Shown: positions 14,127-63,860 of the stretch, one piece after another
Numbering within the stretch: the first letter of the stretch is position 1
Layout: the number at the start of each line of letters is the position of its first letter
Assembly: GCA_017617235.1 (NCBI GenBank)
Contig: JAFZWQ010000041.1
Coordinates: forward strand, 20,144 to 84,143
Source: Bacteroidaceae bacterium
GTDB taxonomy: Bacteria > Bacteroidota > Bacteroidia > Bacteroidales > Bacteroidaceae
Length of the DNA: 64,000 nucleotides
Reading direction: 5' to 3'
The notes under the pieces: generated by a model
Database searches by the model: none
The model's input: the letters and a program-made list of their open reading frames with translations, nothing else
Told to the model about the DNA's origin: nothing
Translations under genes and position numbers: made by a program

Positions 14127-17100
14127 ATGGAGCCTCGATTCTTACTATTTAAAGCATCAGCAGGCAGCGGAAAAACCTATAATCTGGCCATTCAGTACAT
14201 CGCGCTGCTACTCGCCAAAGGCGAACACGAATTTCGACACACGTTGGCAGTCACCTTCACCAACAAGGCAACTGCCGAAATGAAAGACCGCATCCTTCAG
14301 TTCCTCTACGACATGTGGAAAGGAATGCCCAAAAGCGAGGAGAAGGTTGCGGACACCCAAAAAGTGCTGGAAAAATTGCATCAGAAGAAGATGACGGACG
14401 AGGAAGTTCGTCAGCATTGCCACTATGCTCTCAGCGCCATCTTACACGACTACAGCAGATTCTACGTTTCCACTATCGATGCTTTCTTCCAAGGGGTGCT
14501 TCGCAGCATGGCACACGAGCTGGGACTAACCGCCCGACTGCAAGTCGATATTGACGACAAGACCATCATCGAGTTGGCTGTCGAGAACCTGATCGACGAC
14601 CTACGGAACGACAATCGCGATGTATTGCCCTGGCTCAGCAGTTACATCGAACAGCAAATGATGGAGAACAAGCCATGGGATGTGCGGCAAGAATTGAAAA
14701 AGATGGCTCGAATGCTCTTCCAAGAGGAATACCTGAAGCGTTCACTTAACGACGAGAACCGACCTTTTAACATTGAAAATATCGGACATTTTCGCAAATT
14801 GTTACAATCCGAACGAGAGAACCTCATCATCCCCGTTCAGCGCGAAGCCGACAAATTCGAAGACATCTTGCACAACACGGGAGGCGACTACGAGGAGCTC
14901 CTTAATTACAGTTCCGACATTCAACACTATGTTAGCTACATGAAGGCGGGTAATATGGAGGCGAGTTACGGGAAGCGACTACAAGATTTGACAGCCGATT
15001 CTGTTAAGATGCTGAAGGCCCCGTTGCGCAAGGACACATCGCTCCACCCCATTGCCCAGCAATTGGCAGCACAGCTCAACATCATCCACCAGCAACAAGA
15101 ACTGGCCGCACGACGCATCGGCAGCATCGACCTGGCTCTGGCCAACCTGACACCCATGGGACTGTTTGGAGCCATAGACAACGAGATTAGCCGTTTGTCG
15201 AACGAGCGCAACCGTTTCATGCTGGCCCACACCCCTATCATGCTACGTCGGATGATTCAGGGCGAGGATGCCTCGTTCGTATTCGAGCGAATCGGCACTC
15301 AGTACAACAACATCATGATTGACGAATTCCAGGATACCAGCCGCCTGCAATGGGAGAATTTCCGCACCCTGCTCATCGACAATCTGGCTTCTGGCGGGTT
15401 CAGCATGATTGTGGGCGACATCAAGCAAAGTATCTATCGTTGGCGCAATGGCGACTGGCACATCCTTCACGAACTGGACTTGCACGGACACAACGGCATA
15501 CCCGTTATCCACAATCCGCTGGACAAGAACTTCCGGAGTTTGGGAAACATCGTCAACTTCAACAACTGGCTGTTCCCCCTAGCCGCGAAGGCGCTGGACA
15601 AGCTCGCCGGAGAGGAGAGCCATCACCTATCGGACCTTTATTCCGACAAAGGGCAAATCGTCACTAAAGATAAGGACAGCGGGTACGTGCGTATACAAAT
15701 CTGTCACAGCACGGAAAAAGCCGTTGCAGCGGCCTGGGAGGAAAACATGCTGGCCGACCTTTGTCAGCAAGTAGAGCTACTGAAGGCAGGCGGAGTTGCA
15801 TACAAGGATATGACCATTCTGCTGCGAAAGAACCGCTATATCCAACCCACCATTGCCTATTTTGCCGAACATCTGCCCCATGTGCGCTTGGTCAGCAATG
15901 AGGCCTTCCTGCTGGGTTCTTCCATCGCCGTAAAGATGATTGTATGTGCCCTGCAAGTTGTTGACGATATCGAACGCGACCCTGTGGCACTATACTATCT
16001 GGCCGACCAATATCGCCAACACGTCTGCAAACAAACAGGCATAATCCCTGCCGGCATCCAAGAAGACTACCTGAAGCTATTGCCCGACAGCTTTACGGAA
16101 AACCTCAACGAACTGCGCTGTCTGCCACTCTACGAGTTATGTGAAAAGATTTACCGCTTACTCGACCTCGACAAAATTGCCGACAGGCAGGATGCATTCC
16201 TGTTCACCTTCTTCGACGAACTGTCTGCCTATCTGCGCGAGAATCCGTCAGACATTCCTACCTTCATTCAATATTGGAACGAAAAGATGCAGACAACGCC
16301 CATCCCCAACGGCGAGGTCGATGGCATACGCATCTACACCATCCACAAGTCGAAAGGGTTGGCCTTCCACACGGTGCTGATGCCCTATGCCGACTGGGAC
16401 ATCGAAAGGGATATGGCAAGCGACCTGTATTGGTGCAAGCCACATGAAGCGCCCCTCAACGAGATGGGGTCGTTGCCCATCCGATTCACGTCAAAGAAAA
16501 TCAAGGGAACGGCCTTCGAGCAAAACTACAAGGACGAACACATCAACAGACGGGCCGATGAACTGAACACCCTGTACGTCGCCTTCACCCGTGCCAAGGA
16601 AAACCTGCTGGTATGGGGATTGAGCAAGAGCAATATGGATTGCGAGAAGCAAGACGAGAACATTGCCGACCTGCTCTACAAAATACTGAAAGGTGAGGCC
16701 CCCGCCGAGGAAGAACTTTTCACCTACGAACCCTATGGGGCCTATAAGGCCCATGAGCCACATGAGGCCCATGAAGCCAATGAGCCCTATAAGCAAGTAA
16801 CCATGTGCTCCTACGAGGGCAACCTGCAATTCCGCCAAAGCGGACAGGCTACGGAGTTCATCAAACAGGCAGGCGAGGAGGCCATCGACACCCAGACACT
16901 TTCCTACATCGAACAGGGCAAACTGCTGCACTATGTTTTCAGTCAGATAGAGACTGCACAGGACATAGAACGCATTACCAACCAATTTGCCCAACAAGGG
17001 ATATTGCAGTCAGCCAAACAACTGCAGCAGGTCCGCGACCTGGCCGCTCGCGGTCTTCGCAACACACGGGTTCAGGATTGGTTCTCGGGCCGCTACCAGC

Positions 17101-17378
17101 TATTCAATGAGTGCAACATCCTCATACCCGACCCCGAAAACCCAGGAAAGCTGCTGAAGAAACGCCCCGACCGTGTAATGATGTCCGAAGAAAGAATCAT
17201 CGTGGTGGACTTCAAGTTCGGAAAGCCCAACGAGGATTACCACGAACAAGTGAGAGAATACATGCGGATTCTGCAGAGCATGTATCCCACCAAGCAGGTC
17301 GAAGGTTGGCTGTGGTATGTCTATAGTAATAAGATAGAGGCGACCCCTCCCCCAACCCCTCCCGAGGGCGGGGGGTGA
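14127..17378 (+). CDS. addA: AddA/RecB-like helicase-nuclease (UvrD superfamily I helicase)
   Basis: This is the helicase-nuclease subunit that processes double-strand DNA ends for RecA loading. The 1083-aa product has the superfamily 1 motifs in order: Walker A ASAGSGKT (10-17), motif Ia TFTNKATAEMKDR (about 48-60), 'STIDAFFQGVLR', Walker B 'IMIDEFQDTSR' (about 395-405), motif III 'GDIKQSIYRWRNGD', 'TIHKSKGLAFHTV' (about 735) and motif VI 'LYVAFTRAKENLLVWG' (about 812-827). A C-terminal PD-(D/E)XK nuclease domain follows with 'IVVDFKFGK' at about 1023-1031. Residues about 868-890 are encoded by a 9-bp-unit repeat array (16729-16797) and look like an inserted charged linker. The last residues (TPPPTPPEGGG) come from a REP-like palindrome. 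addB follows after 49 bp. Confidence 0.9.
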   Translation: MEPRFLLFKASAGSGKTYNLAIQYIALLLAKGEHEFRHTLAVTFTNKATAEMKDRILQFLYDMWKGMPKSEEKVADTQKVLEKLHQKKMTDEEVRQHCHYALSAILHDYSRFYVSTIDAFFQGVLRSMAHELGLTARLQVDIDDKTIIELAVENLIDDLRNDNRDVLPWLSSYIEQQMMENKPWDVRQELKKMARMLFQEEYLKRSLNDENRPFNIENIGHFRKLLQSERENLIIPVQREADKFEDILHNTGGDYEELLNYSSDIQHYVSYMKAGNMEASYGKRLQDLTADSVKMLKAPLRKDTSLHPIAQQLAAQLNIIHQQQELAARRIGSIDLALANLTPMGLFGAIDNEISRLSNERNRFMLAHTPIMLRRMIQGEDASFVFERIGTQYNNIMIDEFQDTSRLQWENFRTLLIDNLASGGFSMIVGDIKQSIYRWRNGDWHILHELDLHGHNGIPVIHNPLDKNFRSLGNIVNFNNWLFPLAAKALDKLAGEESHHLSDLYSDKGQIVTKDKDSGYVRIQICHSTEKAVAAAWEENMLADLCQQVELLKAGGVAYKDMTILLRKNRYIQPTIAYFAEHLPHVRLVSNEAFLLGSSIAVKMIVCALQVVDDIERDPVALYYLADQYRQHVCKQTGIIPAGIQEDYLKLLPDSFTENLNELRCLPLYELCEKIYRLLDLDKIADRQDAFLFTFFDELSAYLRENPSDIPTFIQYWNEKMQTTPIPNGEVDGIRIYTIHKSKGLAFHTVLMPYADWDIERDMASDLYWCKPHEAPLNEMGSLPIRFTSKKIKGTAFEQNYKDEHINRRADELNTLYVAFTRAKENLLVWGLSKSNMDCEKQDENIADLLYKILKGEAPAEEELFTYEPYGAYKAHEPHEAHEANEPYKQVTMCSYEGNLQFRQSGQATEFIKQAGEEAIDTQTLSYIEQGKLLHYVFSQIETAQDIERITNQFAQQGILQSAKQLQQVRDLAARGLRNTRVQDWFSGRYQLFNECNILIPDPENPGKLLKKRPDRVMMSEERIIVVDFKFGKPNEDYHEQVREYMRILQSMYPTKQVEGWLWYVYSNKIEATPPPTPPEGGG
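16729..16797. repeat. 9-bp-unit repeat array A1 inside addA
   Basis: About seven imperfect copies of a 9-bp unit (consensus GCCCATGAG or GCCTATAAG) lie in frame. They encode YKAHEPHEAHEANEPYK-type sequence between the last helicase motif and the nuclease domain. The same unit occurs at 49471-49540, 62719-62769 and 63781-63860. Because 9 bp is three codons, copy-number changes preserve frame. Confidence 0.85.
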
Positions 17379-17490
17379 TTAGGTTAATGGCTTAGAGGCT
17401 TAGTAGGTTAGTAGATTATAGAGAGATATGAACATAAGAAAAGCGGATAATGATAACGCCCTCCCCTCGGGGAGGGATAGGGGTAGGGGT
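17344..17490. repeat. REP-like inverted pair B1/B2 at the addA-addB junction
   Basis: B1 (17344-17377, ending CCCGAGGGCGGGGGG) and B2 (17459-17490) are inverted copies of one GC-rich element. B2 contains the perfect hairpin CCCTCCCCTCGGGGAGGG (17459-17476), identical to the 18-mer at 40876-40893. B1 encodes the last residues of AddA; B2 encodes residues about 11-21 of AddB. The 80 bp between them holds a TTAGAGGCTTAGTAGGTTAG-type simple repeat and the addB start. Confidence 0.85.
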
Positions 17491-20274
17491 CATCAGTTCC
17501 TATATTATGTAGCCCAGGACCTGATTGGGCGATATGGCAACAACCTGTCGGGTGTAACGATTGTCTTTCCAGGCAAGCGTGCCCAGTTGTACATGAACTC
17601 ATTCCTGTCGCACATTGCACAGGGCCCCGTTTGGGCACCACGTTTCAAGACCATCGACGAACTGTTCCAGCAATTCTCACCCCTCACGCCCAGCGACAAC
17701 ATCCTGAATGTGTGCCGCCTCTATCGGATATATGCCGAATTGGCCCCCAATCCCGAACCGCTGGACACGTTCTACAGTTGGGGCGAAATACTGATGAATG
17801 ACTTTGGCGACATCGACAAACATCTGGTGGATGCCAACAAACTGTTTGCAAACACAGCCGACCTGTTGGCAATGGACCGGGTGGACTACCTCAATGACAA
17901 ACAAATCGAGGCGCTACACGACTTCTTCACCGACTTCGACCCAGAGAAACAGACCAAACTGAAACAGCGCTTCATGGAGATGTGGCAGCTGATGCCCGAA
18001 ATGTATCGCAGACTGAAGGAAGACCTGCGCCGCGACGGCCTGATGTATAAGGGTGCGCTCTACCGCGAAGTGGCAGAGCACCTCCCCCTACCCCCTCCCA
18101 AGGAGGGGACACGTCCTATTGAAGTAGAAAACATGGCGGCTCATGCCCCCTCCCTCGGAGGGGGACGGGGGAGGTTCTGTTTCGTGGGCTTCAATGTGCT
18201 GGACGAGGTCGAGGAATGCCTGTTCCAAGCCCTGAACGAATCGGGACAGGCGCTCTTCTATTGGGACTACGATGTGTATTATGCAGCCAAGAACAGCACG
18301 CACGAGGCCGGACAGTTCCTGCGTCACAACCTGGAACAATTCCCCTGTGCCCTGCCCGACGATATTTACGACAACCTCATCGACCCCAACAAGCAAATCC
18401 ATATCTTTTCGGCCAGCACCGACAATGCCCAGGTGCGCTACCTGGCCCAGTGGGTGCAGGAAAGGCCGGAAACAGGAACAGCCGTTGTGCTGTGCGACGA
18501 AGCGCTGATGCGCCCTGCCCTGCACGCCCTGCCCGATGACACGAAGGTGAACATCACCATGGGCTACCCACTCACGGACACAGCCATCTACGGCTATTTC
18601 TCAAGCCTTATCGACCTGCAGGTGAATGGGTTCAACGCCGACCTCAATCGTTTCCTGGCGACAGCCCAGGAGCGTGTCGAGAAGAATGCTTTCTTCGCCA
18701 CCTTCCCACAGGAGCAGCTACCCCTGCAACACCAAACCGATACACTCGCCCTTGTCGACTGGCTGCTGGCCGCAACGGAGGCCCTGGGCAAATCGCTCTC
18801 CGAAACAGAGGCACCCTCGCCCTACGACCAGTTGTATGCCGAAAGTGCGTTCCAACTGTACAAGATTCTGGGACAGTTCCGATGGCTCATCACAGAAGGC
18901 ACCCTCCAGGTCAGCCTCATCACCCTGCGCCGCCTCATCCGCCAGGCGTTGCAGTCGGCCAGCATCCCCTTCCATGGCGAGATGGACGAAGGCATTCAGG
19001 TAATGGGTCTCCTGGAAGCGCGCAATCTGGACTTCACTCACCTGATTATGCTATCTGTAGGCGAAGGTGTCATCCCCAGACGTTCCACCGACGTTTCCCT
19101 CATACCTTATATACTTCGTGCCCATTTCGGACTCGACACCGTCGAGCGTCAGGATTCCGTATATGCCTATTCCTTCTACCGTCTGTTGCAGCGGGCCCAG
19201 GACATCACCTTGGTGTACAACGAGAACAGCAGCGGAGCCACGCAACGCGAACAGAGCCGTTTCCTGCGCCAGCTCGTCATCGAGACCAACCTCAACATCG
19301 AACAGGCAAAACTGGATGCACCTTTCTCCCTGCCACCACAGGAGCCCATCTCCATCGAGAAGGATGAACACATCATGGACATCCTCTATCAAAAGCGCAG
19401 CCTTTCGCCCACGGCCATCAACCAATACATCGACTGCCGGCTGAAATTCTATTTCCAGTATGTGGCCCAGTTGCGCATGCCCTATCGGCCGCAGGACGGC
19501 ATCGATGCACCCACCTTCGGCACCCTGTTCCACGACACCTGCGAAAAATTCTATCGCCAGTTGCGCGAAAAGACGGGACGCAAACAGGTGCTGTGCTCCG
19601 ACCTCGAGCCCTTTGTGCAGACACCCGCGCTGCTCGCGCCCTACCTCGACGAGGCATTTGGCGAAATCCCCAGCGCCACGGGCGTAAACATGATTATCCG
19701 CAATGTCATCACCCACATGGTGCTCCAGTTACTGCAATGGGATATGGCACACACGCCCTTCACCATCTATGACTTGGAAATCGACGCATACACCCCGCTA
19801 ACCTTCAAATCCGCTGGTCGGGAAATCAGGCTGTCCGTGGGCGGACGCATCGACCGCATGGACATCATGCCCATCGACGGGCGCCCCACCCTGCGCGTCG
19901 TCGACTATAAGACAGGAAAGTCGAAAGGTAACCTGGCAGGCATCGAGGCCATTTTCGACAGTGCTTCGTCCGGCCCCCATGGCTACTACCTGCAAACCTT
20001 CCTCTATTCGCTCATCATGAGTCGCAAACAGGAACTGCCCGTCAGCCCGTGCCTCTTCTATGCCCTCGCGGCTACAGATGCCCAAGGCTACGACCCCACC
20101 CTGAAGTTTGGGAAAGACGCCATTACCAACATATCGGAATATGCCGAGGCCTATTGGGAGGGACTAAGCCGTGTGCTGACGGAAATCTTTAACCCTGCCA
20201 TTCCGTTTACCCAACAGACAGAAGACCAGAAACGCTGTCAATATTGCGACTTTGCCCGGCTGTGTGGAAAATAG
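17428..20274 (+). CDS. addB: AddB-like PD-(D/E)XK nuclease with predicted Fe-S cluster
   Basis: The 948-aa product is the partner of AddA in end resection. It begins near a degenerate helicase fold in which the Walker A position reads 'IVFPGKRAQLYMNSF', so ATP binding there is probably lost. The C-terminal nuclease is clear: 'TFGTLFHDTCEKFY' (about 690-705), 'GGRIDRMDIMP' (about 807-817) and 'RVVDYKTGKSKG' (about 821-832). An AddB-type iron-sulfur motif is suggested by the Cys in YIDCRLKFYF (about 669) and the closing CQYCDFARLC. Two repeat intrusions are in frame: residues about 11-21 (PSGRDRGRG) from REP copy B2, and about 218-250 from the inverted pair B3/B4. The true start could therefore be argued, but no better ATG is visible. 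Confidence 0.87.
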   Translation: MNIRKADNDNALPSGRDRGRGHQFLYYVAQDLIGRYGNNLSGVTIVFPGKRAQLYMNSFLSHIAQGPVWAPRFKTIDELFQQFSPLTPSDNILNVCRLYRIYAELAPNPEPLDTFYSWGEILMNDFGDIDKHLVDANKLFANTADLLAMDRVDYLNDKQIEALHDFFTDFDPEKQTKLKQRFMEMWQLMPEMYRRLKEDLRRDGLMYKGALYREVAEHLPLPPPKEGTRPIEVENMAAHAPSLGGGRGRFCFVGFNVLDEVEECLFQALNESGQALFYWDYDVYYAAKNSTHEAGQFLRHNLEQFPCALPDDIYDNLIDPNKQIHIFSASTDNAQVRYLAQWVQERPETGTAVVLCDEALMRPALHALPDDTKVNITMGYPLTDTAIYGYFSSLIDLQVNGFNADLNRFLATAQERVEKNAFFATFPQEQLPLQHQTDTLALVDWLLAATEALGKSLSETEAPSPYDQLYAESAFQLYKILGQFRWLITEGTLQVSLITLRRLIRQALQSASIPFHGEMDEGIQVMGLLEARNLDFTHLIMLSVGEGVIPRRSTDVSLIPYILRAHFGLDTVERQDSVYAYSFYRLLQRAQDITLVYNENSSGATQREQSRFLRQLVIETNLNIEQAKLDAPFSLPPQEPISIEKDEHIMDILYQKRSLSPTAINQYIDCRLKFYFQYVAQLRMPYRPQDGIDAPTFGTLFHDTCEKFYRQLREKTGRKQVLCSDLEPFVQTPALLAPYLDEAFGEIPSATGVNMIIRNVITHMVLQLLQWDMAHTPFTIYDLEIDAYTPLTFKSAGREIRLSVGGRIDRMDIMPIDGRPTLRVVDYKTGKSKGNLAGIEAIFDSASSGPHGYYLQTFLYSLIMSRKQELPVSPCLFYALAATDAQGYDPTLKFGKDAITNISEYAEAYWEGLSRVLTEIFNPAIPFTQQTEDQKRCQYCDFARLCGK
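18081..18175. repeat. REP-like inverted pair B3/B4 inside addB
   Basis: CCTCCCCCTACCCCCTCCC (from 18081) and its inverted partner CCCCCTCCCTCGGAGGGGG (from 18146) are separated by about 36 bp, all inside the addB reading frame. Together they add about 32 codons, reading LPLPPPKEG, then a spacer, then PSLGGGRGR. The pair layout matches B1/B2 and B6/B7. Confidence 0.87.
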
Positions 20275-20558: not shown

Positions 20559-20562
20559 CAAA

Positions 20563-20590
20563 AACCTCCCCACATCAGGGAGGTTTTTTC
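20563..20590 (+). terminator. Terminator after tRNA-Arg
   Basis: AACCTCCC and GGGAGGTT form a perfect 8-bp stem around CACATCA, followed by TTTTC. Because A residues precede it, it can also act on the minus strand for the converging DUF1080 gene. Confidence 0.9.
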
Positions 20591-21390: not shown

Positions 21391-23172
21391 TTACTTGGCG
21401 ATGTGCTTTTGCTTGCCGACGATGTAGAGGCCGCGTGGGTTAGAGATGCGACGGCCAGAGAGGTCGTAAGATTCATTTTTCACTTTTCCCTTTTCCATTT
21501 TCACCTCATCGATGCCGACTAACTCATCTGGCATGCGCAGGAGGGACAGGCTGGTGAAGCTGAGCCACTGGTGTATGCCAGAGCCAGAGCCAGAAAGCAT
21601 GATATCGACCGTGCGGGGTTCTGACAGTGTGAAGGGCAGATAGCGCCATTCCCAGCCGCGTCCGGCTCCATTGTTGGCATACTGACCATCGGGGGAGAAG
21701 TTGGCACGGCCTGAAGTGTCGATGCCATAGCCCACATCGCCCTTCGTGGGGAAGCGGACGGACTGGTCGTCGACAGACATGGTGGCAATGGTGGACTCGG
21801 AGGCGCTGCGTCCTGCGCACTTCAGCACATAGTTGCCAGCAGGCAGGCTGACGCTCGAGCGCATGTACATGGACCAAGAAGTATCGCCCCAACCCCAACT
21901 TTGTTCCCAGTAGGTGGTTTTGGACGTGCCGTCATAGTGCTGACCACTCATCTTATCGCTCCAGTTATACGTTTCCCACTCGCCCAGCGGGCTGGATTCA
22001 TCCTCTGTATAGTATTTGGTGACGACCTCATATTCCGCGAGATTCAGCTTCACCAAATACTCCTTCATCTCCGCAATAGTCATCTGTTGGCTGCTATCTG
22101 AAAGTTTGTGCCTAATCTCGGATACATCAACACCCAGTTGGCTGGCGATTTCTACCTCGCGAATCAGCTTTTCCAGGACCTCGTTGATGCGGTCGGCATC
22201 GATGGCGGCCTGAATGCCAGCCACCTCGGCATCCGTGACGGGGATAACGGTTCCGTGACGGGGCGTGAAGACACCGCTGGTATAGGTGTTCTGCTTGAAG
22301 GTGAAGGTCGAAAGGTCCGTGCTGGTGCAGAACTGATAGTAGCCGCTGGTGTAACAATCGTACATGAGCACCCATGTGCTGCCGTCGATGAGCTGGAAAA
22401 CACCAGCGCCCTCGACAGCCACATTCGTCTGCTGCAGTTTGCCCGAAGGCGCACTCCACTGGGTGCCCTCCTGTCCCACGGGCGCTGTCAGCTGTGTGGC
22501 AGTAACCTTGCTGATACCGCCGTCGTCCTCGTTCTTGTAGAAGGCATGATAGGTTCCGTTGTCGTACACGATGTCCATATCGATGGTGGACTTGCCACGA
22601 TCGAACAGCACCGTGGGTTCGCCCTCGAGGTCCGTAAAGTCGGCATTGGCATAGTTGTAATAAACCCTGTCGTAGGGAATGGTGCCGTCGTTGGTCAGCA
22701 GGGAGTAGTAAATCATGTACTTACCAGCCACGGGGTCGTAGATGGTCTCTGGAGCCCACACACGGGTGACATTGGCAAAATTCGTACCCTGGTACTTATC
22801 GGGGAAATGGATGGCAGAATGTTGCCAGTGCACCAAGTCGCGCGACTTCAGCAGCACCATGCCGCGATTCGAATCCCACCCTTCAGCACAGCGCATATCG
22901 GTAGCCACCATCAGAAACCAACCATCGTCGGTGCGCAGGATATGCGGGTCGCGCAGGCCCTTCTTCAGAGCCACCGTATCGGCAGCCAGAAAACGCTGTC
23001 CGTCGTTTATCGGGGTGTAGTCGAACCCATTGTCGGACAGGGCGTAATAGATGTTCTCGTCGCTGTTCGAAGGGAAGTAAACGAAGAGATACTTGGTGAA
23101 GGCATCGGCAGCCTTCAGGCCCATCGCTGCTGCCAGCAGGAAGAGCGCAAGAGACAGAAATCTACGTTTCAT
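21391..23172 (-). CDS. GH43-like five-bladed propeller glycosidase with C-terminal sorting-like tail
   Basis: I start at the ATG at 23172 (593 aa), where a signal peptide begins (cleavage near LKAAD). The N-terminal half shows the glycoside hydrolase 43 pattern: 'KKGLRDPHILRTDDGWFLMVATD' with the presumed base Asp75, 'DLVHWQ', 'VTRVWAPETIYDPVAGKYMIYYS', 'IDMDIVYDNGTYHAFYKNE' and an acidic residue in 'VEGAGVFQL'. Family 43 cleaves arabinans, arabinoxylans or xylans. A beta-sandwich at about 400-555 looks like a carbohydrate-binding module. The end carries YDLSGRRISNPRGLYIV, also seen in the 43538-45196 product. A repeat-type KMEKGKVKNE insert (21474-21502) sits just before that tail. It follows the TolC gene by 16 bp and may be cotranscribed. 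Confidence 0.8.
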   Translation of the reverse strand: MKRRFLSLALFLLAAAMGLKAADAFTKYLFVYFPSNSDENIYYALSDNGFDYTPINDGQRFLAADTVALKKGLRDPHILRTDDGWFLMVATDMRCAEGWDSNRGMVLLKSRDLVHWQHSAIHFPDKYQGTNFANVTRVWAPETIYDPVAGKYMIYYSLLTNDGTIPYDRVYYNYANADFTDLEGEPTVLFDRGKSTIDMDIVYDNGTYHAFYKNEDDGGISKVTATQLTAPVGQEGTQWSAPSGKLQQTNVAVEGAGVFQLIDGSTWVLMYDCYTSGYYQFCTSTDLSTFTFKQNTYTSGVFTPRHGTVIPVTDAEVAGIQAAIDADRINEVLEKLIREVEIASQLGVDVSEIRHKLSDSSQQMTIAEMKEYLVKLNLAEYEVVTKYYTEDESSPLGEWETYNWSDKMSGQHYDGTSKTTYWEQSWGWGDTSWSMYMRSSVSLPAGNYVLKCAGRSASESTIATMSVDDQSVRFPTKGDVGYGIDTSGRANFSPDGQYANNGAGRGWEWRYLPFTLSEPRTVDIMLSGSGSGIHQWLSFTSLSLLRMPDELVGIDEVKMEKGKVKNESYDLSGRRISNPRGLYIVGKQKHIAK

Positions 23173-23188
23173 GGCATTGTATTTTGAA

Positions 23189-24538
23189 TTAGTATTGTGT
23201 TTTGCGAATATAGTCGGCACGTTTCACCTGATAGGTGGCCAGCGCATCGGACAGCTGACTGTGGGCCTGACGGTTCAGGGTCTCGGCATCCAGCAGGTCG
23301 CTGAGCATCTCGGTTCCGGCTTTGTACTGGTCGGTGGACAGGCGCAGGTTCTCCTCGGCCGAACGGACACTAGCCTGCGCAATCTCTATCTGCTTGTAAG
23401 CCTCGATGAGGTTGCTCCAGGCCGATTCCACATCCACTGCCAACTGTTCGCGAACATCGTCGGCCTGGTTGCGGGCCTGCTGCAACTTCAGCTGCGTGCG
23501 ACGGATAGCGTGCCTGCCGCCCCACCACGACATGAGGGGAACAGACAGGGTGCCAAAGACCAAGCCGTTGGTCATGTTCGTGTCCATGTATTTCTTTGCA
23601 TTGTCCGAGAGTCCGCCAAAGCCCGTATTGTAGCCCATCAAGCCCACGGCCACGGTGGGCATATACTTGCCGCGCTCCATTTTCACCTGCCATTCGCCTG
23701 CCTCGACCTGTTTCTGCAGAAGGGCCGTTTCCTCGCGACGGCTCACTGCATCGTCCGTAGGAACAAGCACCGTGGAGGGCTCCTGCGCCTCGAGCGACGT
23801 GGCATCGATGTCAATCTGCTGACCCGCCATACCTATTTGCTGGGCCAACAGGAGCAGCAAGACGTGCTCGGCATTCTCCAACTTCAGGCGGTTCGAGGCC
23901 AGTTCCTGCTGTCGCAACTGCACCTTCAGCAGGTCGTTACGCGTGGTGACACCAGCATTCACATAGTTTTCCACCAGTTTCTGCACCTCGGCCAACTGTT
24001 TCTCAGCTGCTGCGATGGTTTCGAGGTTATACTTGACGCCAGCCACACGCCAATAGCATTCCGTGACTTTCTGCAGCACCTCCTTTTCCTGCATCCGCAA
24101 CTGCAACTGCACAGCCTCCTGCCCTATCTTGGCCAGTTTGTTTCCTGCCACAATGCGACCTCCGGCATAGAGCGGCTGCGTGAGGGTGACGGTGGCCGAA
24201 TAGGCCCGATTGAACTCGCTGTACGAAAAAGGTGTACCCACCAACGGGGCAAAGGACGGGCTGATGGCAGCAATCTCGGCAGGATAGACACCACTGCCGT
24301 TCACCATCTCGTCGAAAGCGTGGAAAGCCATCACATTGGCCTGGATATCGGGGAAGTATTTGGTATAAGCCTCCTTGCGCTGTTCCGTGGACATCTGTAT
24401 GTCGAGCGCCGCATTCTGCAGCGTGCGGTTGTTCTGTCGCGCCAAATCCAGACAACGCTCAAGACTCAACGTCTGGGCCGTTGCCAAGAAAATGAAAAAA
24501 TGAGAAAATGAGATAATCAAAAATATAGTACGCTTCAT
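23189..24538 (-). CDS. TolC-family outer membrane efflux channel
   Basis: The ATG at 24538 is preferred over the TTG 9 bp upstream, giving 449 aa. After a signal peptide (cleavage near LATAQ) come two outer-membrane-efflux repeats rich in coiled-coil helices: 'LSLERCLDLARQNNRTLQNAALDI' opens repeat 1, and 'YKAGTEMLSDLLDAETLNRQAHSQLSDALATY' lies in repeat 2. The trimer would form the outer-membrane exit duct for the RND pump encoded just upstream. The signal peptide core (ISFSHFFIF) is encoded by an ATTTTCTCATTTT-type low-complexity string (24485-24520, read on the minus strand), as in the PAP2 gene. The gap to the pump gene (24539-24594) carries intra-operon repeat E. Confidence 0.94.
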   Translation of the reverse strand: MKRTIFLIISFSHFFIFLATAQTLSLERCLDLARQNNRTLQNAALDIQMSTEQRKEAYTKYFPDIQANVMAFHAFDEMVNGSGVYPAEIAAISPSFAPLVGTPFSYSEFNRAYSATVTLTQPLYAGGRIVAGNKLAKIGQEAVQLQLRMQEKEVLQKVTECYWRVAGVKYNLETIAAAEKQLAEVQKLVENYVNAGVTTRNDLLKVQLRQQELASNRLKLENAEHVLLLLLAQQIGMAGQQIDIDATSLEAQEPSTVLVPTDDAVSRREETALLQKQVEAGEWQVKMERGKYMPTVAVGLMGYNTGFGGLSDNAKKYMDTNMTNGLVFGTLSVPLMSWWGGRHAIRRTQLKLQQARNQADDVREQLAVDVESAWSNLIEAYKQIEIAQASVRSAEENLRLSTDQYKAGTEMLSDLLDAETLNRQAHSQLSDALATYQVKRADYIRKTQY

Positions 24539-27645: not shown

Positions 27646-28714
27646 ATTTCACGGGTGTTCCCTCTCCTACTTTCTGATAACCCTCAACAATCACTTGGTC
27701 GCCTTCCTGGAGGCCAGATTCGATGACCACACGGTTACCCACGGTCTGTCCAATGGTGACAGGTGTGCGATGAGCCTTTCCATCCTTGGGGACCCACACG
27801 AAGAGTGTTTTGTCCGTTGCCTGCTGCACAGCCTTCACGGGCAATGTCACTACCCCCTCATTTCTCATTTTCTCATTTTCTTGCTCCTCTTCGCTACGCA
27901 AGCGCTTCGCGATTACTCCATTTCTCATTTTCACCCTTGCCACCATACCTGGTAACAACTTATGACCTGGATTGGGAACCGTGATACGAATATCGTAGGT
28001 ATGGGTCAGCGGATCGGCACTGACACCCTTCTCGATTTTGCCGCCCTGGAACACTTCATCGCCCAAGGCATCCACAGTAATCTGTGTAGCTGTTCCTGCC
28101 GTAATGCCGGCAATCTCGCGTTCAGGGATGGCAACACGCACCTTCACACGGTCTATAGAAAGGATGGTGAGCACGGGTTCCGTGGGCAGCACGGTCTCGC
28201 CAACACTCATTATCTTCGTACCTACCACACCACTGACAGGGGCATAGATACGACAATCGTCCAGATTCTTCTTCGCCATATCGTAAGCCGACTGAGCCTG
28301 CTGCACCTTGCTCTCGACCTCGACCCACTTCATGTCAGCCAACGATTGGTTGTCGTGCAGGAGTTTCATGCGTTCATAGGCATCCTTGGCCTGATCCAGG
28401 GCAGCCTTAGTTGTTGCCAACGTATTGCGGGCCTGTGTCTCGTCGATAACAGCCAGCAACTGACCTTTTTTCACAGCCTGACCCTCGCTAACTGTCATGG
28501 TCTGCAGCACAGCCATTCCCGTAAAGCTGACAGTGGTGGAGCTTTCCTCCTCGACAACTCCTACATAGGGAATTTGGGCAACGTCGCTGGAGGGTGTTAC
28601 ACGCTCTACGACAACAGCCAGCGTCTCTTCCTCCGTCTTCTCCTGCTTCGTTCTGCAAGCACAGAACAGCATTACAGAACAAAGGACGGGAATGATTCCT
28701 TTCGTTGTTTTCAT
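27632..28714 (-). CDS. RND efflux periplasmic adaptor lipoprotein
   Basis: The 360-aa membrane-fusion protein starts with a lipoprotein signal (FCAC, Cys20). The lipoyl half-motif 'TVSFTGMAVLQTMTVSEGQAVKKGQLLAVID' (about 48-80) is followed by a coiled-coil hairpin (about 83-135) and the second lipoyl half 'IYAPVSGVVGTKIMSVGETV'. A beta-barrel and membrane-proximal domain complete it. It bridges the pump to the TolC channel. Residues about 262-288 (IAKRLRSEEEQENEKMRNE) are a highly charged insert encoded by ATTTTCTCATTTC and GCTACGCAAGCG repeat DNA (27850-27930), placed between the barrel and the membrane-proximal domain. No own promoter box was convincing in the 75 bp upstream. Confidence 0.94.
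   Translation of the reverse strand: MKTTKGIIPVLCSVMLFCACRTKQEKTEEETLAVVVERVTPSSDVAQIPYVGVVEEESSTTVSFTGMAVLQTMTVSEGQAVKKGQLLAVIDETQARNTLATTKAALDQAKDAYERMKLLHDNQSLADMKWVEVESKVQQAQSAYDMAKKNLDDCRIYAPVSGVVGTKIMSVGETVLPTEPVLTILSIDRVKVRVAIPEREIAGITAGTATQITVDALGDEVFQGGKIEKGVSADPLTHTYDIRITVPNPGHKLLPGMVARVKMRNGVIAKRLRSEEEQENEKMRNEGVVTLPVKAVQQATDKTLFVWVPKDGKAHRTPVTIGQTVGNRVVIESGLQEGDQVIVEGYQKVGEGTPVKYGME
27850..27930. repeat. Repeat-derived insert in the RND adaptor gene
   Basis: Two blocks of TTTCTCATTTTCTCATTTTC-type sequence flank CTTCGCTACGCAAGCGCTTC. The first type recurs in the TolC and PAP2 signal peptides; GCTACGCAAGCG recurs near 12990. All of it is in frame in the adaptor gene. Confidence 0.75.
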
Positions 28715-40844: not shown

Positions 40845-40907
40845 ATCCGTAATAGTAATGAATATGTAATCACTCCCCTCCCCTCGGGGAGGGTTAGGGA
40901 AGGGGTT
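40779..40907. repeat. REP-like inverted pair B6/B7
   Basis: B6 (40779-40809, ACCCCACCCCCAATCCCCTC then CCGAGGG) and B7 (40873-40907) are inverted copies separated by about 63 bp. B7 contains CCCTCCCCTCGGGGAGGG (40876-40893), identical to the 18-mer in B2. B6 lies inside the signal peptide of the beta-helix lipoprotein; B7 fills the gap up to the pepD stop and may act as a transcription terminator. Confidence 0.85.
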
Positions 40908-47705: not shown

Positions 47706-49082
47706 TTATTTCACGGCCTCGCCCTTGCCGTCCTCGGTGAGGTAGAAGAGGGGGGCCTCGTTGGTCTGCGGCTGTTCGTAGTAGTGCAGGCCGGAGTCGT
47801 TGGTGCGGGGGTGCCAGTTATCCAGGAGTCGCAGCATTTCGGCAGCGGCCCAGATGGCAGGTCCGTAGCCGTGGGCAGCAGCTGCGCTGACGGGACGATA
47901 GTAGTAGAAGGCGGGGTCGAAGGCCATGCCGGTGCCCACACAGGTGCCTGCAACACGTCCGTCGCGGGTGATTTGGGTGGCCAGGGCGTTCCAGCCGAGC
48001 TGTGCCACAGGACCATAGGTGATGCCTTCGAGCCAACCCTGGTTCACGGCACGGGCTATGGCATAGGTGTAGATGGCTGTGGCGCTGGTTTCGAGATAGG
48101 AATCGTTGCGGTCCAGCAGTTGGTGCCAGAATCCCTCGCTGGACTGGTAGGAGGCCAGGCCGCGCACGTGTTTGCGGAGTTGTTCGAGGATGAAGGGGCG
48201 GTCGGGATGCGACTCGGGCAGCATGTCGAGCAGTTCGACGGTGGTGAGCAGGGCCCATCCGTTGGCACGTGCCCAGTGATAGGTGGGCTGGTCCTGCAGG
48301 CCCTCGACATAGCCGTGACGGTAGATGCCCTTTTCGGGAACCCACATGCGGCTGACGAAGTTACGGTACATGGTGGCAGCCTCGTCGAAGTACTTGCTGT
48401 CGCCGGTATATACGCCGCGATAGGCGATGGTGGGGATGCCCATGTACATATCGTCGAGCCAGATGGTGTTGCGCTGGGGACGATGACGGGCAAAGGTGCG
48501 GTCGGGCAGGCGGTACTGCTGGTTCTCGACGAAATCGAAATAATTCTCGATTATCGGATTTAATTCTTCACTTTTAATTTTTAACTTTTCATTTTTCACT
48601 GCTTTCATCATCGCTGTACACATGGTGCCGCAATCGTCCAGGGCACGCGGGTGCAGAATCTGTTCCATCTGGGCATCCTGGCATTCGGCCTGCTCGCGGA
48701 ACTGCGGAGCCACCTCGGCAATGAACTGGAAACGGGTCTTCACGTAATCGCTGTAGCGTTGGTCGCCCGTAACCTCGGCTGCTGCCAACAGTGCCTGATA
48801 GGTGATGCCCCATTCGTAGGAACCGATGCGGAAAGCGCCACGTTCCAGCGTGCCATCGTCCTTCAGGGCATGGGGTGTCTGTTCGTCGACATAGCGGAAG
48901 ATGCGGTCGAGGGCATCCAACACGCTGTCCTTCTGCACTTCCCCGTACGGAATCTTATAGTCGGGCTTCAACAGATGCAGGGGGGTGGTAGAATCGTTGA
49001 CCTCTTCTTCCTGCACATTTTGTTTGGTACACTGTACACTGAGGGCTGCCAGAAGCAGCAGAAACATGGATTTTGCTTTCAT
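47706..49082 (-). CDS. Unsaturated rhamnogalacturonyl hydrolase-like lipoprotein (GH105/GH88)
   Basis: The enzyme removes the unsaturated uronic acid left by pectin or rhamnogalacturonan lyases. The 458-aa product has a lipoprotein signal (SVQC, Cys18) and the (alpha/alpha)6-barrel pattern: 'YEWGITYQALLAAAEVTGD', 'WLDDMYMGIPTIAYRG' with the Asp pair that includes the catalytic acid of YteR-type enzymes, 'YHWARANGWALLTTVELLDMLP', and 'SATAIYTYAIARAVNQGWL'. Residues about 161-174 (VKNEKLKIKSEELN) come from AT-repeat DNA (48556-48603). It is divergent to the PL26-like gene, which fits a shared RG-I role. Confidence 0.88.
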   Translation of the reverse strand: MKAKSMFLLLLAALSVQCTKQNVQEEEVNDSTTPLHLLKPDYKIPYGEVQKDSVLDALDRIFRYVDEQTPHALKDDGTLERGAFRIGSYEWGITYQALLAAAEVTGDQRYSDYVKTRFQFIAEVAPQFREQAECQDAQMEQILHPRALDDCGTMCTAMMKAVKNEKLKIKSEELNPIIENYFDFVENQQYRLPDRTFARHRPQRNTIWLDDMYMGIPTIAYRGVYTGDSKYFDEAATMYRNFVSRMWVPEKGIYRHGYVEGLQDQPTYHWARANGWALLTTVELLDMLPESHPDRPFILEQLRKHVRGLASYQSSEGFWHQLLDRNDSYLETSATAIYTYAIARAVNQGWLEGITYGPVAQLGWNALATQITRDGRVAGTCVGTGMAFDPAFYYYRPVSAAAAHGYGPAIWAAAEMLRLLDNWHPRTNDSGLHYYEQPQTNEAPLFYLTEDGKGEAVK

Positions 49083-49192: not shown

Positions 49193-51823
49193 ATGAAACG
49201 AAACATCGCACTGTGGATTACTCTGTTTGCCGCCACCTGCCTGAAGGCGCAAGTTCTCCTGCATTGGGTGGGAAACACGCCCCAATCGCAACAACCCGTA
49301 ACGCTGGGCATTCCCTTCGACAAAGGGGAGATGAAAGCCGACCAGGCAGGATGCATCACCAACAACGGAGAGGCACTGCCTACCGACTGCTGGCCCCTGG
49401 CCTACTGGCCCGACGGCAGCGTGAAGTGGATGGCAGCCGCCACAGTAATTCCCCAGGGAGCCGGTCGACTGGCCTATGAGCCCAATAAGCCCCACGAGGC
49501 CTATACGACCTATGAGGCTCATACGGCCTATAAGGCCCAGTCCTTGCTGATAAACACCGGAGCGCTGCAGGCCTACATCCCCTGCAAGGGCAATGCGCTG
49601 ATAGACAGCCTGGTACTGAACGGCACACGGGTGGCGCAGAACGGCACGCTGGTTTGCACCACACAGGACGCGCCCTATCAGGACAACCTGCAGCAGCAGA
49701 GTTTCTGCCACTTCCAGAGTCGGATTGATACGGCCTACATTGAGCGGCAAGGACAGGTGCGCACCGTGGTTCGCATAGACGGACACCATGCGGGAGGCGG
49801 TCGGCAGTGGCTGCCCTTCACCGTGCGTCTGTATTTCTATCAGAGATGCAACGAGGTGAAGATGGTGTATTCGTTTGTCTATGACGGCGACCAGCAGCGC
49901 GACTTCATCTGTGCATTGGGAGTGCGTTTCGAGGTTCCCATGCGCGAACAACTGTATAACCGACACGTGGCCTTTGCCACAGGCAGCGGCGTGTGGGCCG
50001 AGAGTGTGCAGCCCCTGAGCGGCAGACGCATCCTGGCCAACAACCCGCAGTTGGAAGTGCACCAGGTGGCCGGCAAGCGCATCCCCGAACCCGAGACATT
50101 CGACGAGATGGGGCGCAGCCTGTTGCGCAACTGGGCCTCGTGGGGTTCGTTCCGACTGACTCAGCCCAACGACCAGGGTTTCTCGATAGCTAAACGCGCC
50201 CACCCCAACAACCCGTGGATAGGCACACAGACAGGACACAGGGCACAGGGTTACGCCTTTGTGGGTGACGTGAGCGGCGGACTGGGCATCGGCGTGAAGG
50301 ATTTCTGGCAGAGTTATCCCGCATCGCTGCAGGTGGACAGCGCCACAAGCGATGTTGCCCTGTTTACCGCCTACCTGTGGAGCCCCGATGCACCCGCCAT
50401 GGACCTGCGCCACTACGACAACGTGGCACACGACCTGAATGCCAGCTACGAGGATGTGCAGGAAGGCATGTCCACCCCCTACGGCATTGCCCGCACCTCT
50501 ACCCTCACCCTCGTACCCCAGATAATTAAAAATGAAAAATTAAAAATTAAAAATGATAACTCGGAACTCGGAACTCGGAACTCGGAACTGAAAGAGATTG
50601 TCTTCCAAACGGCAAAGCGTCTTTCCGAGGACACTCCCCTACTGCCCACGCCGCAGTACGTGCACCAGAAACGCGCCTTCGGCATCTGGGCACTGCCCGA
50701 CACGTCGACCCCCAAACGCCGACAGGTAGAGGAACTGCTGGACCAGTACCTCGACTTCTACCTGCGCCAGCGCGAACAGCACCATTGGTACGGGTTCTGG
50801 AACTATGGCGACTTCATGCACCAGTACGACCCGGCCCGCCACGAATGGAAATACGACGTGGGCGGCTTTGCCTGGGACAACACCGAGTTGGGCAGTATCT
50901 CGTGGCTATGGTACAGTTTCCTGCGTACGGGACGGGCCGACCTATGGCAACTGGCAACGGCAATGACGCGCCACGTGTCGGAGGTCGATGTCTATCACAT
51001 CGGTGAGATGGCAGGACTAGGGTCGCGACACAACGTATCGCACTGGGGATGCGGAGCCAAGGAAGCACGCATCAGTCAGGCCGCATGGAACCGTTTCCAG
51101 TATTACCTGACCGCCGACGAACGGTTGGGTGACCTGATGACAGACGTGCGCGATGCCGACCAGAAACTGTACAGCATAGACCCCATGCGACTGGCTCTAC
51201 CCCGCGAGAAATATCCCTGCACCGCTCCGGCCCGACTGCGTGTAGGTCCCGACTGGCTGGCCTATGCCGGCAACTGGATGACGGAATACGAGCGCACGCG
51301 CAATCCTATATATAAAAAGAAGATAGAGGCCGGCATGAAGAGCATATCGCGACTGCCCAACGGCATATTCACAGGTCCGGGCGTGTTGGGATTCGACCCC
51401 GCAACGGGAATCCTGTCGTGGGAAGGCGACAAGAACGTAACCCACGCCGAACACCTGACCACCATCATGGGAGGCTTCGAGATACAGCACGAAATAGACG
51501 AGATGCTGCCCAACAAACAATGGCAACGCACGTGGCTGGATTACTGCCGCCAATATCACCTGCGAACCAAAAACACCTTCCGCATAAGCCGACTGAAGGC
51601 ATACGCCGCATGGAAGCTGCAGGACAAACAACTGGCCGAGGAGGCATGGAAGGATATGTGGACATACGGACACAAGCTGCAGCACTACCCCTTCCAGATG
51701 CAGCACATAGCAGGCAGCCAGGTGCCCGAGCCTCTGGACGAAAGCCCGCTGACCACCACCAACGACTGCGCCCTGTGGAGTCTGGAAGCCATCTTCATGC
51801 AGGAGGTGATTCCCCAGGAGTAA
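49193..51823 (+). CDS. PL26-like exo-rhamnogalacturonan lyase (PcRGLX/YetA-type)
   Basis: The 876-aa product has a signal peptide (cleavage near LKAQV). An N-terminal RIFT-barrel-like domain follows ('VTLGIPFDKGEMKAD', 'LPTDCWPLAYWPDGSVKWM') as in PcRGLX/YetA-type proteins, then a long (alpha/alpha)-barrel part with 'YGFWNYGDFMHQYDP', 'HVSEVDVYHIG' and 'GSRHNVSHWGCGAKEARIS'. The family includes exo-acting rhamnogalacturonan lyases. Two repeat inserts are in frame: 9-bp-unit array A2 (residues about 94-116) and AT-rich plus GGAACTC repeats (about 444-467). GH105 next door would process its unsaturated products. Lyase activity is by family only. Confidence 0.75.
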   Translation: MKRNIALWITLFAATCLKAQVLLHWVGNTPQSQQPVTLGIPFDKGEMKADQAGCITNNGEALPTDCWPLAYWPDGSVKWMAAATVIPQGAGRLAYEPNKPHEAYTTYEAHTAYKAQSLLINTGALQAYIPCKGNALIDSLVLNGTRVAQNGTLVCTTQDAPYQDNLQQQSFCHFQSRIDTAYIERQGQVRTVVRIDGHHAGGGRQWLPFTVRLYFYQRCNEVKMVYSFVYDGDQQRDFICALGVRFEVPMREQLYNRHVAFATGSGVWAESVQPLSGRRILANNPQLEVHQVAGKRIPEPETFDEMGRSLLRNWASWGSFRLTQPNDQGFSIAKRAHPNNPWIGTQTGHRAQGYAFVGDVSGGLGIGVKDFWQSYPASLQVDSATSDVALFTAYLWSPDAPAMDLRHYDNVAHDLNASYEDVQEGMSTPYGIARTSTLTLVPQIIKNEKLKIKNDNSELGTRNSELKEIVFQTAKRLSEDTPLLPTPQYVHQKRAFGIWALPDTSTPKRRQVEELLDQYLDFYLRQREQHHWYGFWNYGDFMHQYDPARHEWKYDVGGFAWDNTELGSISWLWYSFLRTGRADLWQLATAMTRHVSEVDVYHIGEMAGLGSRHNVSHWGCGAKEARISQAAWNRFQYYLTADERLGDLMTDVRDADQKLYSIDPMRLALPREKYPCTAPARLRVGPDWLAYAGNWMTEYERTRNPIYKKKIEAGMKSISRLPNGIFTGPGVLGFDPATGILSWEGDKNVTHAEHLTTIMGGFEIQHEIDEMLPNKQWQRTWLDYCRQYHLRTKNTFRISRLKAYAAWKLQDKQLAEEAWKDMWTYGHKLQHYPFQMQHIAGSQVPEPLDESPLTTTNDCALWSLEAIFMQEVIPQE
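49471..49540. repeat. 9-bp-unit repeat array A2 inside the PL26-like gene
   Basis: Units such as GGCCTATGAG, CCCCACGAG and GCCTATAAG repeat with 9-bp spacing and encode YEPNKPHEAYTTYEAHTAYK. It lies within the N-terminal RIFT-barrel region, between 'GAGRLA' and 'SLLINTGAL'. Confidence 0.8.
50521..50592. repeat. AT-rich and GGAACTC repeat insert in the PL26-like gene
   Basis: AATTAAAAATGAAAAATTAA leads into four copies of a 7-bp unit (TCGGAAC). They encode KNEKLKIKND then SELGTRNSEL. The KNEKLKIK part also occurs in the divergent GH105 gene, encoded from the other strand of the same kind of DNA. Confidence 0.8.
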
Positions 51824-57976: not shown

Positions 57977-57985
57977 TTCAAAACC

Positions 57986-58525: not shown

Positions 58526-58546
58526 CAACTAGTCCCCCTGTAAGCC

Positions 58547-59545: not shown

Positions 59546-59560
59546 CCCAATCCGTCGAAA

Positions 59561-60361
59561 TTAGCGAAGAACGAGGGAACAGGAAAGGCCGGCAGAACGG
59601 GTGTCGTAAAGGTAGAAGGGCGAAGCAACGACAACTGCTTTGCTCTCGCGACGAAGCCGACGCTGTTGGTCGCGCTGGTCAATGTGGAAGAGGCGTTTCC
59701 ACACTGGCAACATCCAATAGCCGGCATTGGCACAAAGGATACCCGTTCCAGCACCAGCCAGCACATCACCCACCCAATGACGTTTGTTGTAGACACGCAG
59801 GAAGGCAACGCTGGTAGCAACCGCATAAGCGGCAGCTCCATAACCCCATCCGTATTCAATGCGCACAAGTTCGGCACCCGTAAATGCAGTAGCTGTGTGC
59901 CCCGAGAAGAACGAATTGCGTTTACTGGAATCCGGACGGGTTTCTTTGACAGTGTACTTGACAGTGTTTGTAATGCCCGCCATGAACAGATGAGCAGTAG
60001 CAGAAGCCAAGAAACGGTCGCGAAAGTTATTCCGTGCCTTGACACCCGGGATAAAGCCCAGTGCCAAGTGTGTTGCCGTGGGTACGTATTGTAGATATTC
60101 ATCGGCCTTGCAATGATGCCAATTAGGATTCATTTCCTCACAAGCCTTCTCTTCAAGCCAGTCGATGGGGCTTTGCTCGGCTAGTCCCCAAGTTCCAATG
60201 CCTATCAGCAGGGCCGGGGCCACGAGTTGTTTGGGACGGAAACGATATTCCGCACTTGCACCATCCTTTTGGACAGACAGCGTATCTTCTTGCGCATGCA
60301 AGGGAAAATGATAAATGAATATTAAATGAAAAATGAATAGTATTTGTGTCGCTTTTTTCAT
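59561..60361 (-). CDS. PAP2-family phosphatase
   Basis: The 266-aa membrane-associated phosphatase carries all three PAP2 motifs: K-x6-RP in 'KYTVKETRP' (about 134-142), 'SFFSGHTATAF' (about 149-159) and R-x5-H-x3-D in 'RVYNKRHWVGDVLAG' (about 185-199). Substrates in the family are lipid phosphates such as undecaprenyl pyrophosphate or lipid A. A signal peptide precedes (cleavage near PLHAQ), and its core (LFIFHLIFIYHF) is encoded by ATTCATTTTTCATTTAATA-type repeat DNA (60300-60345). It converges with GH16 (15-bp gap). Confidence 0.92.
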   Translation of the reverse strand: MKKATQILFIFHLIFIYHFPLHAQEDTLSVQKDGASAEYRFRPKQLVAPALLIGIGTWGLAEQSPIDWLEEKACEEMNPNWHHCKADEYLQYVPTATHLALGFIPGVKARNNFRDRFLASATAHLFMAGITNTVKYTVKETRPDSSKRNSFFSGHTATAFTGAELVRIEYGWGYGAAAYAVATSVAFLRVYNKRHWVGDVLAGAGTGILCANAGYWMLPVWKRLFHIDQRDQQRRLRRESKAVVVASPFYLYDTRSAGLSCSLVLR

Positions 60362-60375
60362 TTAGTTATGTTTTA

Positions 60376-60411
60376 TCTCTCCTCTCCATCATGGGGGAGG
60401 TCGTGAGAGGG
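60376..60411. repeat. Single degenerate REP-like element B8
   Basis: CTCTCCTCTCCATCATGGGG continues as GAGGTCGTGAGAGGG. It is a diverged copy of the GC-rich palindrome family in the 51-bp gap between the barrel protein and PAP2 genes. Confidence 0.5.
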
Positions 60412-60412
60412 T

Positions 60413-62782: not shown

Positions 62783-62783
62783 C

Positions 62784-63707: not shown

Positions 63708-63723
63708 AAATCTATTTTGACTA

Positions 63724-63754
63724 CAAAGATACGAATATAATTCGACATATCAAA
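63724..63754 (-). promoter_or_regulatory. Promoter of the 62784-63707 operon
   Basis: On the minus strand TTTG (63751-63754) and TATCTTTG (63724-63731) are 19 bp apart, which is the canonical layout. The ATG at 63707 follows about 17 bp later. Confidence 0.75.
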
Positions 63755-63780
63755 GCCACATCCAAAATCACTCTCCATCC

Positions 63781-63860
63781 GCCCCATTGGTCCCATTAGA
63801 GCAATAAGCCCCATTGGTTCTAATCCCTATTAGGCTCATTAGGCCTATTAGACTCATCCG
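63781..63860. repeat. 9-bp-unit repeat array A4 (intergenic)
   Basis: CCCCATTGGTCCCATTAGAG and following units (AATCCCTATTAGGCTCATTA, GGCCTATTAG) repeat with 9-bp spacing. This is the same family as in addA, the PL26-like gene and the 789-aa barrel signal peptide, here in non-coding DNA next to the rRNA operon. Confidence 0.85.

Follow-up and report, generated by a model that had tools for sequence, protein, structure and literature searches.

Two kinds of short repeat are dispersed genome-wide in a Prevotella-family bacterium (draft genome of 2.54 Mb, 50 contigs, 85.5% complete), namely G-rich palindromes, often arranged as outward-facing pairs, and tandem arrays of 7-, 8- or 9-nt units. The window analyzed here is a 64,000-nt stretch of one contig (C13), and placement counts cover this window plus 40 other stretches of the genome, 815 kb in total. 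The repeats reside mainly in intergenic DNA, with the palindrome pairs concentrated at gene junctions. An earlier note on the window, made from the sequence alone, had described repeats entering coding regions in frame; it missed the larger pattern, in which palindrome pairs bracket co-directional junctions. We consider it likely that the palindrome pairs are dispersed elements and the arrays slipping tracts, that both were filtered after insertion, and that junction copies take over the stop and start codons of the adjoining genes.

The palindrome consensus is roughly (A)CCCC-nn-CCCC-n-AT-CCCCTCCC-GA-GGGAGGGG, most commonly followed by AGTAT, CGTAT or AGTAG. Whole-genome matching of CCCCTCCCnnGGGAGGGG, allowing 3 mismatches at most, yielded 58 matches, some of them overlapping, compared with 5 for the reversed pattern. 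Using nhmmer (E 0.1 or better), 55 palindrome hits forming 23 pairs were detected in the 815 kb. All 23 pairs share one orientation, with the C-rich ends facing outward, inverted arms of ~25–43 nt and a spacing of 16–80 nt. Because four of the 40 stretches had been picked for holding palindrome matches, pair density is an overestimate; layout counts should be less affected. The same nhmmer model, built from arms of the genome under study, gave zero hits in samples of ten other genomes. Whole-genome pattern counts with at most 2 mismatches are 27 in the genome under study (G000 in comparisons with relatives), 45 in G012, 22 in G015, 16 in G014, 9 each in G016 and G002, 8 in G009, 1 in G021 and 0 in G020. 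Three palindrome pairs, two of them with a similar spacer, separate co-directional neighbors within ~6 kb at L106:13878-19999.

Genes were called with a heuristic in-house caller whose starts are approximate, rendering counts at 5' gene edges unreliable. Three of the 23 palindrome pairs lie within called genes, and the remaining 20 all separate co-directional genes. Overall, 405 of 531 neighboring gene pairs are co-directional (P 0.004 for 20 out of 20, calculated from neighbor counts and ignoring gap length). In 16 of the 23 pairs, no more than 12 nt separate the outer end from the upstream stop, and the usual layout runs from the upstream stop through arm 1 and the spacer to arm 2. Of the 20 junction pairs, 13 have an in-frame ATG ahead of arm 2, from which arm 2 and the gene form one uninterrupted frame; in six the ATG comes downstream of arm 2, and one pair is ambiguous.

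Arm 2 ends at residue 21–26 in 12 of these 13 predicted leaders and at residue 14 in the other one. The proteins concerned include AddB, CoaD-, TrxB- and FolC-like enzymes, and lipoproteins, where the names CoaD, TrxB, FolC, LpdA and ParE are what we take the proteins to be from their appearance, Pfam giving wider families only. The leaders read the arm in differing frames (e.g., PSLGRGLGVG, PLPREGQGGG and SPSGEVGRG), and the predicted sequences start with MDKSKNIISSS... in the CoaD-like and with MNNMNEQTTNATT... in the TrxB-like protein. In seven of the 13 leaders the next Met occurs at residue 85 or later (residue 124 in the CoaD-like, 85 in the TrxB-like and 118 in the FolC-like protein), and the Pfam domain of the CoaD- and TrxB-like proteins begins at residue 28. 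A leader should therefore be translated in these cases, barring initiation at a rare start codon. Two successive elements precede a ParE-like and a CoaD-like gene at L074:8130-11940, with predicted leaders on both. At L108:12599-12706, a palindrome pair lies in frame at a gene 3' end, directly followed by the ATG of the next gene.

The tandem arrays are likewise far from random expectation. Under a strict rule, the 815 kb contain 89 period-7, 31 period-8 and 7 period-9 arrays, compared with 0 after block shuffling; adding a looser period-9 rule raised the set to 135 arrays, with 0 in each of five block shuffles under the same rule. The earlier statement that dispersed repeats occur in frame in coding regions holds genome-wide. 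The period-9 signal is the weakest, with 15 arrays under the loose rule compared with 11 of period 12 and 1–6 for most other periods. Units are diverse (AAAATTG, AAAAGTG, AACTCAG, AAAATGAG and others), mixed arrays fuse different units, and sister species carry other units. Same-genus samples of G020 (70 kb), G003 (80 kb) and G021 (76 kb) contained no period-7 or period-8 arrays, that of G005 contained a single 7/8-nt array, and that of G016 8 period-7 and 3 period-8 arrays in 80 kb. Smaller loci across the genus yielded 19 period-7 arrays in 181 kb, and five genomes of other families a single array in total (G026). A scan for inverted repeats only, applied to 260 sampled co-directional junctions, gave 11 with a score of at least 30 and 0 after shuffling; these 11 comprise six palindrome pairs and five inverted pairs of 7- or 8-nt arrays. 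Elsewhere the scan identified 2 of 28 junctions in the outgroup G026, 1 of 28 in G016 and 0 in six other genomes. Inverted pairing as a general rule of the 7/8-nt arrays was rejected, as direct pairs are about as frequent as inverted ones among close array pairs found by the strict finder, and it holds for a subset.

Only 30 of the 135 arrays lie inside called genes (24 of 119 without the four chosen stretches), whereas 82.6% of random segments of array length do so. In-frame placement in excess of chance is not supported: coding placement is rarer than random, and in-frame copies are for this reason best explained as survivors, not as targeted insertions. Among the 30 arrays inside genes, the period-9 arrays at L099:11571 and L108:8778 are probably ordinary protein repeats (TEEDEDDED and AAAPAAAP). 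A further 16 arrays overlap a gene end, 15 of them at the 3' end (the 5' figure being unsafe, given the rough starts). Neither 7 nor 8 is divisible by three; a perfect array of either period therefore encodes one cyclic peptide whichever frame of a strand is read, and is open or closed for that strand as a whole. Of 14 7/8-nt arrays extending across a 3' end, 13 have a stop-bearing unit on the gene strand, and 20 of the 27 arrays inside genes have a consensus unit that contains no stop on that strand, the other seven presumably being open through variant units. This placement pattern is as predicted by filtering after insertion. Arrays of 8 nt are found inside genes less often than those of 7 nt (1 of 31 vs 26 of 89, p=0.002), and units closed on both strands account for 14 of 31 and 17 of 89, respectively. 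The terminal placement proposed earlier did not hold for the arrays, only 5 of the 30 inside ones lying within 10% of a protein end, but it did for the palindrome pairs, which are mostly found at junctions.

The repeat sites of the window, with positions counted from its first nucleotide, are as follows.
14075–14107, no strand assigned: intergenic 7-nt array (AACTTTC) 5' of AddA (array scan).
14127–17378, plus strand: AddA-like UvrD helicase with a 9-nt array in one linker and a tail encoded by a palindrome (Pfam PF00580, PF13361; comparison with L011).
16722–16789, plus strand: 9-nt tandem array (EPYGAYKAHEPHEAHEANEPYK) in frame in the AddA linker, with no net gain compared with L011.
17342–17375, plus strand: G palindrome arm 1, coding for the AddA tail (nhmmer; junction compact in L011).
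17456–17491, minus strand: G palindrome arm 2, coding for part of the AddB leader, with an ATG between the arms (nhmmer, junction layout).
17428–20274, plus strand: AddB-like PD-(D/E)XK nuclease, which has a leader of 23 residues and an insert in a linker (Pfam PF12705; relatives).
18078–18175, plus strand: G palindrome pair in frame in the AddB linker, with arm 1 at 18078–18109 (nhmmer) and a second palindrome at ~18147–18170, outside the nhmmer hits used; a similar insert is present in G017.
21472–21502, minus strand: 7-nt array near the C-terminus of a protein earlier called 'GH43', to which Pfam assigned no family (array scan).
24487–24519, minus strand: 8-nt array in the signal peptide region of a TolC-like protein (array scan; relatives).
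27860–27940, minus strand: 8-nt-type repeats in an HlyD-like adaptor, which exceeds the two relatives compared by 12 and 15 residues.
40777–40817, plus strand: G palindrome arm in the leader of a predicted beta-helix lipoprotein (MLLIDKLQKYIRPSLGRGLGVG; nhmmer, junction layout).
40876–40906, minus strand: G palindrome arm whose end lies 2 nt or less from the stop codon of an M20 peptidase (nhmmer; relatives).
47421–47462, no strand assigned: intergenic 7-nt array (array scan).
48559–48596, minus strand: 7-nt array in GH105 (VKNEKLKIKSEEL); G016 is equal in length there.
49473–49539, plus strand: 9-nt units in PL26, site 1; G013 has similar units in another frame.
50522–50593, plus strand: PL26 site 2, two joined 7-nt arrays; 9 of 10 relatives have no array here.
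60300–60361, minus strand: weak 7-nt-like repeats in the PAP2 signal peptide region (76% match, missed by the array scan).
63792–63860, no strand assigned: intergenic 9-nt units near a 5S rRNA gene (repeat search).

Of the 14 in-frame intrusions counted in the earlier note, 11 are repeats in translated sequence (AddA linker and tail, AddB leader and linker, HlyD, TolC, 'GH43', lipoprotein leader, GH105 and both PL26 sites), and the PAP2 site is weak, which bears out that observation in part. Two are not supported: the CCA stretch is a G-rich loop segment of variable length in same-genus relatives too and gives no hit with the palindrome model, and the 789-aa protein contains one short G-rich match only, likewise with no hit by this model. 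Comparison with relatives covered ten of the 11 sites. Six carry net extra sequence (AddA tail, AddB leader, AddB linker, HlyD, PL26 site 2 and lipoprotein leader), and in four a variable stretch is replaced or shared without clear net gain (AddA linker, PL26 site 1, TolC and GH105). Pfam, by which protein families were assigned, revealed no transposase among the 20 window proteins examined, and an Rfam scan of five sources returned nothing beyond tRNA and 5S rRNA. At 47200–47423, where no confident genes are located, 35-nt inverted arms (89% complementary) flank tandem ATGAGGTGTTG units, which looks like another small inverted-repeat element.

Empty and filled versions of the same site occur among relatives. 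In L011, an uncultured Prevotellaceae metagenome-assembled genome whose AddB is 71% identical, the AddA and AddB genes overlap by ATGA, as read from the sequence, and the junction is also compact in G020; in the genome under study a palindrome pair of ~150 bp lies between them, with AddA gaining a tail and AddB its leader. Among the fetched stretches and L011, this is the only junction for which adjacent orthologs of palindrome-pair neighbors were found, twice and both times compact, and a similar palindrome pair is present in G019 (L036). The ParE and CoaD genes were searched for in 19 same-genus genomes and found together in 15. The CoaD core overlaps the ParE stop or begins at most 8 nt away in nine of these, and 66–173 nt separate the two in the other six, where palindromic leaders (G000, G002, G015, G017 and G018, with a single imperfect palindrome only in G015 and G018) or 7-nt arrays (G013) were identified by eye. 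The corresponding gap measures 33–126 nt in three genomes of other families. Between the M20 peptidase and the beta-helix lipoprotein, inspection by eye of 17 same-genus genomes gave seven compact junctions, six longer or unclassified ones, and four filled either by G palindrome pairs (G000 and G016) or by inverted pairs of 7-nt arrays (G006 and G018); the second 7-nt array of G018, as translated, reads like the lipoprotein signal peptide core. Sites inside genes recur as well: the AddB linker insert in G000 and G017, the PL26 site 2 array in two of 11 genomes (G000 and G013), and the GH105 loop in G000, G017 and perhaps G016; the 9-nt units of PL26 site 1 have similar counterparts in G013, where they are read in a frame other than that of G000. 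By sequence comparison, the AddB leader and linker, the lipoprotein leader and the CoaD-like leader are in-frame insertions missing from orthologs. We tentatively propose, at somewhat less than an even chance, that interchangeable inverted-repeat modules (G palindromes or 7/8-nt arrays) independently and repeatedly colonize the same tight or overlapping junctions across the genus, acting as a portable stop-ATG-leader cassette that would alter core enzymes at their N-termini and secreted proteins in their signal peptides.

We envisage that the palindrome pairs are non-autonomous elements resembling dimers of repetitive extragenic palindromic (REP) sequences, which some copying machine would spread to new sites, and that the arrays grow and shrink through slippage, a plausible process for 7-, 8- and 9-nt units. 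Insertions would land more widely and then be filtered, such that a copy inside a gene would survive only if it preserved the frame, brought no stop and lay in a tolerant region. Junction elements would supply both a stop and a start and might thus be tolerated even at overlapping genes, at the cost of an added peptide at the N-terminus; for certain secreted proteins, an arm may become part of the signal peptide. Spacer comparisons suggest copying of some pairs as units, because a few spacers (12 of 253 comparisons, best score 52) are alike beyond the shuffled maximum of 27.

Several observations weigh against this view. Most spacers are unlike each other, restricting any unit copying to a subset, and arms are no more alike within an element than between elements (0.719 vs 0.739), as would fit if the pairs are old or if their arms inserted separately; co-evolution of the two arms of an element was not seen for G palindromes. 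No target duplication was detected, the 23 flank pairs being no different from re-paired ones. Eight of the 23 pairs derive from the four stretches chosen by palindrome match, the search model derives from the genome's own arms, and the junction statistic leaves gap length aside. The six junction pairs with the ATG after arm 2 place it 10–17 nt past the arm, where no leader is needed, and the other six of the 13 leaders have a Met inside arm 2 (three) or at residues 38–56 (three); we infer leader translation from open frames and missing Met codons. Frame-breaking insertions escape counting, as broken genes are not called, and stop content accounts for only part of the difference between 7- and 8-nt arrays.

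The earlier note held that the driver must act in trans or through slippage and pointed to genes for REP-associated tyrosine transposases (RAYTs), yet PF01797 gave 0 hits in the genome under study, an absence that is not final at 85.5% completeness. A REP doublet forming a hairpin (REPIN) driven by such a transposase would account for inverted palindrome pairs with 16–80-nt spacers and absent target duplications, and G012, with the most palindrome matches, has two PF01797 hits, while G002 and G009 have one weak hit each. But G015 and G014 have none despite their many matches, and G021 has two with 1 match. With hits across this genome and 40 relatives bearing no clear relation to palindrome number, RAYT is not supported as the driver and we regard a REPIN system as improbable. 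Replication slippage together with chance, with arrays arising in place and nothing mobile, would suit the diverse units, the mixed arrays joining different units and the other units of sister species; it leaves palindrome pairs with shared spacers unexplained and is, in our judgment, distinctly unlikely. The strong form of the earlier proposal, a trans-acting machine that targets coding sequence in frame, can invoke the many genes with in-frame copies, but only 22% of arrays lie inside genes, compared with 83% of random segments, making it extremely improbable.

An alternative that we find unlikely, albeit deserving more weight than the foregoing, is that junction pairs are functional, with a hairpin at the start codon insulating or tuning the downstream operon gene and unrelated repeats recruited for that purpose. 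The same layout formed by unrelated repeats ahead of the lipoprotein gene and the six filled junctions between ParE and CoaD would agree with this, as would strong predicted hairpins at four folded junctions (−61.9 to −76.0 kcal/mol, no shuffle control). Many same-genus relatives nonetheless manage with compact junctions, nine of 15 at ParE–CoaD and seven of 17 at the lipoprotein, and the G020, G003 and G021 samples have no 7- or 8-nt arrays. Filtering of dispersed elements and slipping arrays remains the reading we favor. These sites offer a natural replicated experiment in which repeats turn into protein, the same junction being empty or differently filled by species with the frame kept, and junction elements allow testing how overlapping operon genes become separated. 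In these genomes, annotation can easily go wrong at start sites and N-termini.

The nearest known kinds are REP dimers and Rickettsia palindromic elements. In the literature searched, of which the sources were seen in part, we found no printed description of the stop-arm-ATG-arm layout, of one junction filled by unrelated repeats across species, or of these elements in Prevotella; this does not prove that none exists. As described in the portion consulted, REP dimers are small, often opposite-facing palindromes located mostly between unidirectional or convergent genes, near upstream 3' ends and at times supplying the stop, with some copies in genes including recB and UvrD/REP helicases (PMC3733652). 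The repeats described here have in common with REPs, on that account, a 20–40 bp palindrome in many copies, opposite-facing dimers, unidirectional junctions, repeat-supplied stop codons and in-gene copies. They differ in that no GTAG/CGTC tag was found in the outer 18 nt of 55 arms (in the inner 7 nt, GTAG occurs in 6 of 55 and CGTC in 1 of 55), RAYT was not found, the sample contains no pair between convergent genes, and an ATG lies between the arms, a layout not described for REP dimers in what we consulted of that source. Because tags and transposase are missing here, the G palindromes are not filed as REPs, even though they are REP-like in working. REPINs (PMC3116915, consulted in part) likewise consist of inverted palindrome pairs, unlike these in that RAYT was not found here. 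Of the traits of miniature inverted-repeat transposable elements (MITEs), terminal inverted repeats are present and a target site duplication was not found; only a subset of spacers resemble each other, and the search for an autonomous relative, made with PF01797, gave no hit.

Rickettsia palindromic elements reportedly provide the classic case of in-frame insertion (Ogata 2000). They are found in frame in many unrelated genes, where they are translated and tolerated, according to the part of PMC10969869 consulted. The likeness is one of description, the host is different, and the elements studied here lie mostly at junctions; moreover, unlike the Rickettsia elements, they specify no single conserved leader peptide, because the leaders use different arm frames. 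For the arrays, the excerpted description of TAACTGA heptamers offers a parallel: intergenic 7-nt arrays, also present in some Bacteroidetes, whose stop-bearing strand is confined to gene ends and whose stop-free strand occurs inside open reading frames (PMC4679880). TAACTGA is not among the 7-nt consensus units listed here, and in contrast to those heptamers we find many units, 8-nt and some 9-nt periods, and some inverted array pairs. The BrickBuilt MITE of Porphyromonas gingivalis, as far as the source was consulted, carries tandem 23-nt units inside an inverted-repeat element that is always intergenic (PMC4596501). Like BrickBuilt, the present repeats combine tandem units and inverted repeats in a member of the Bacteroidales, and in a subset of them the inverted arms are made of the arrays.

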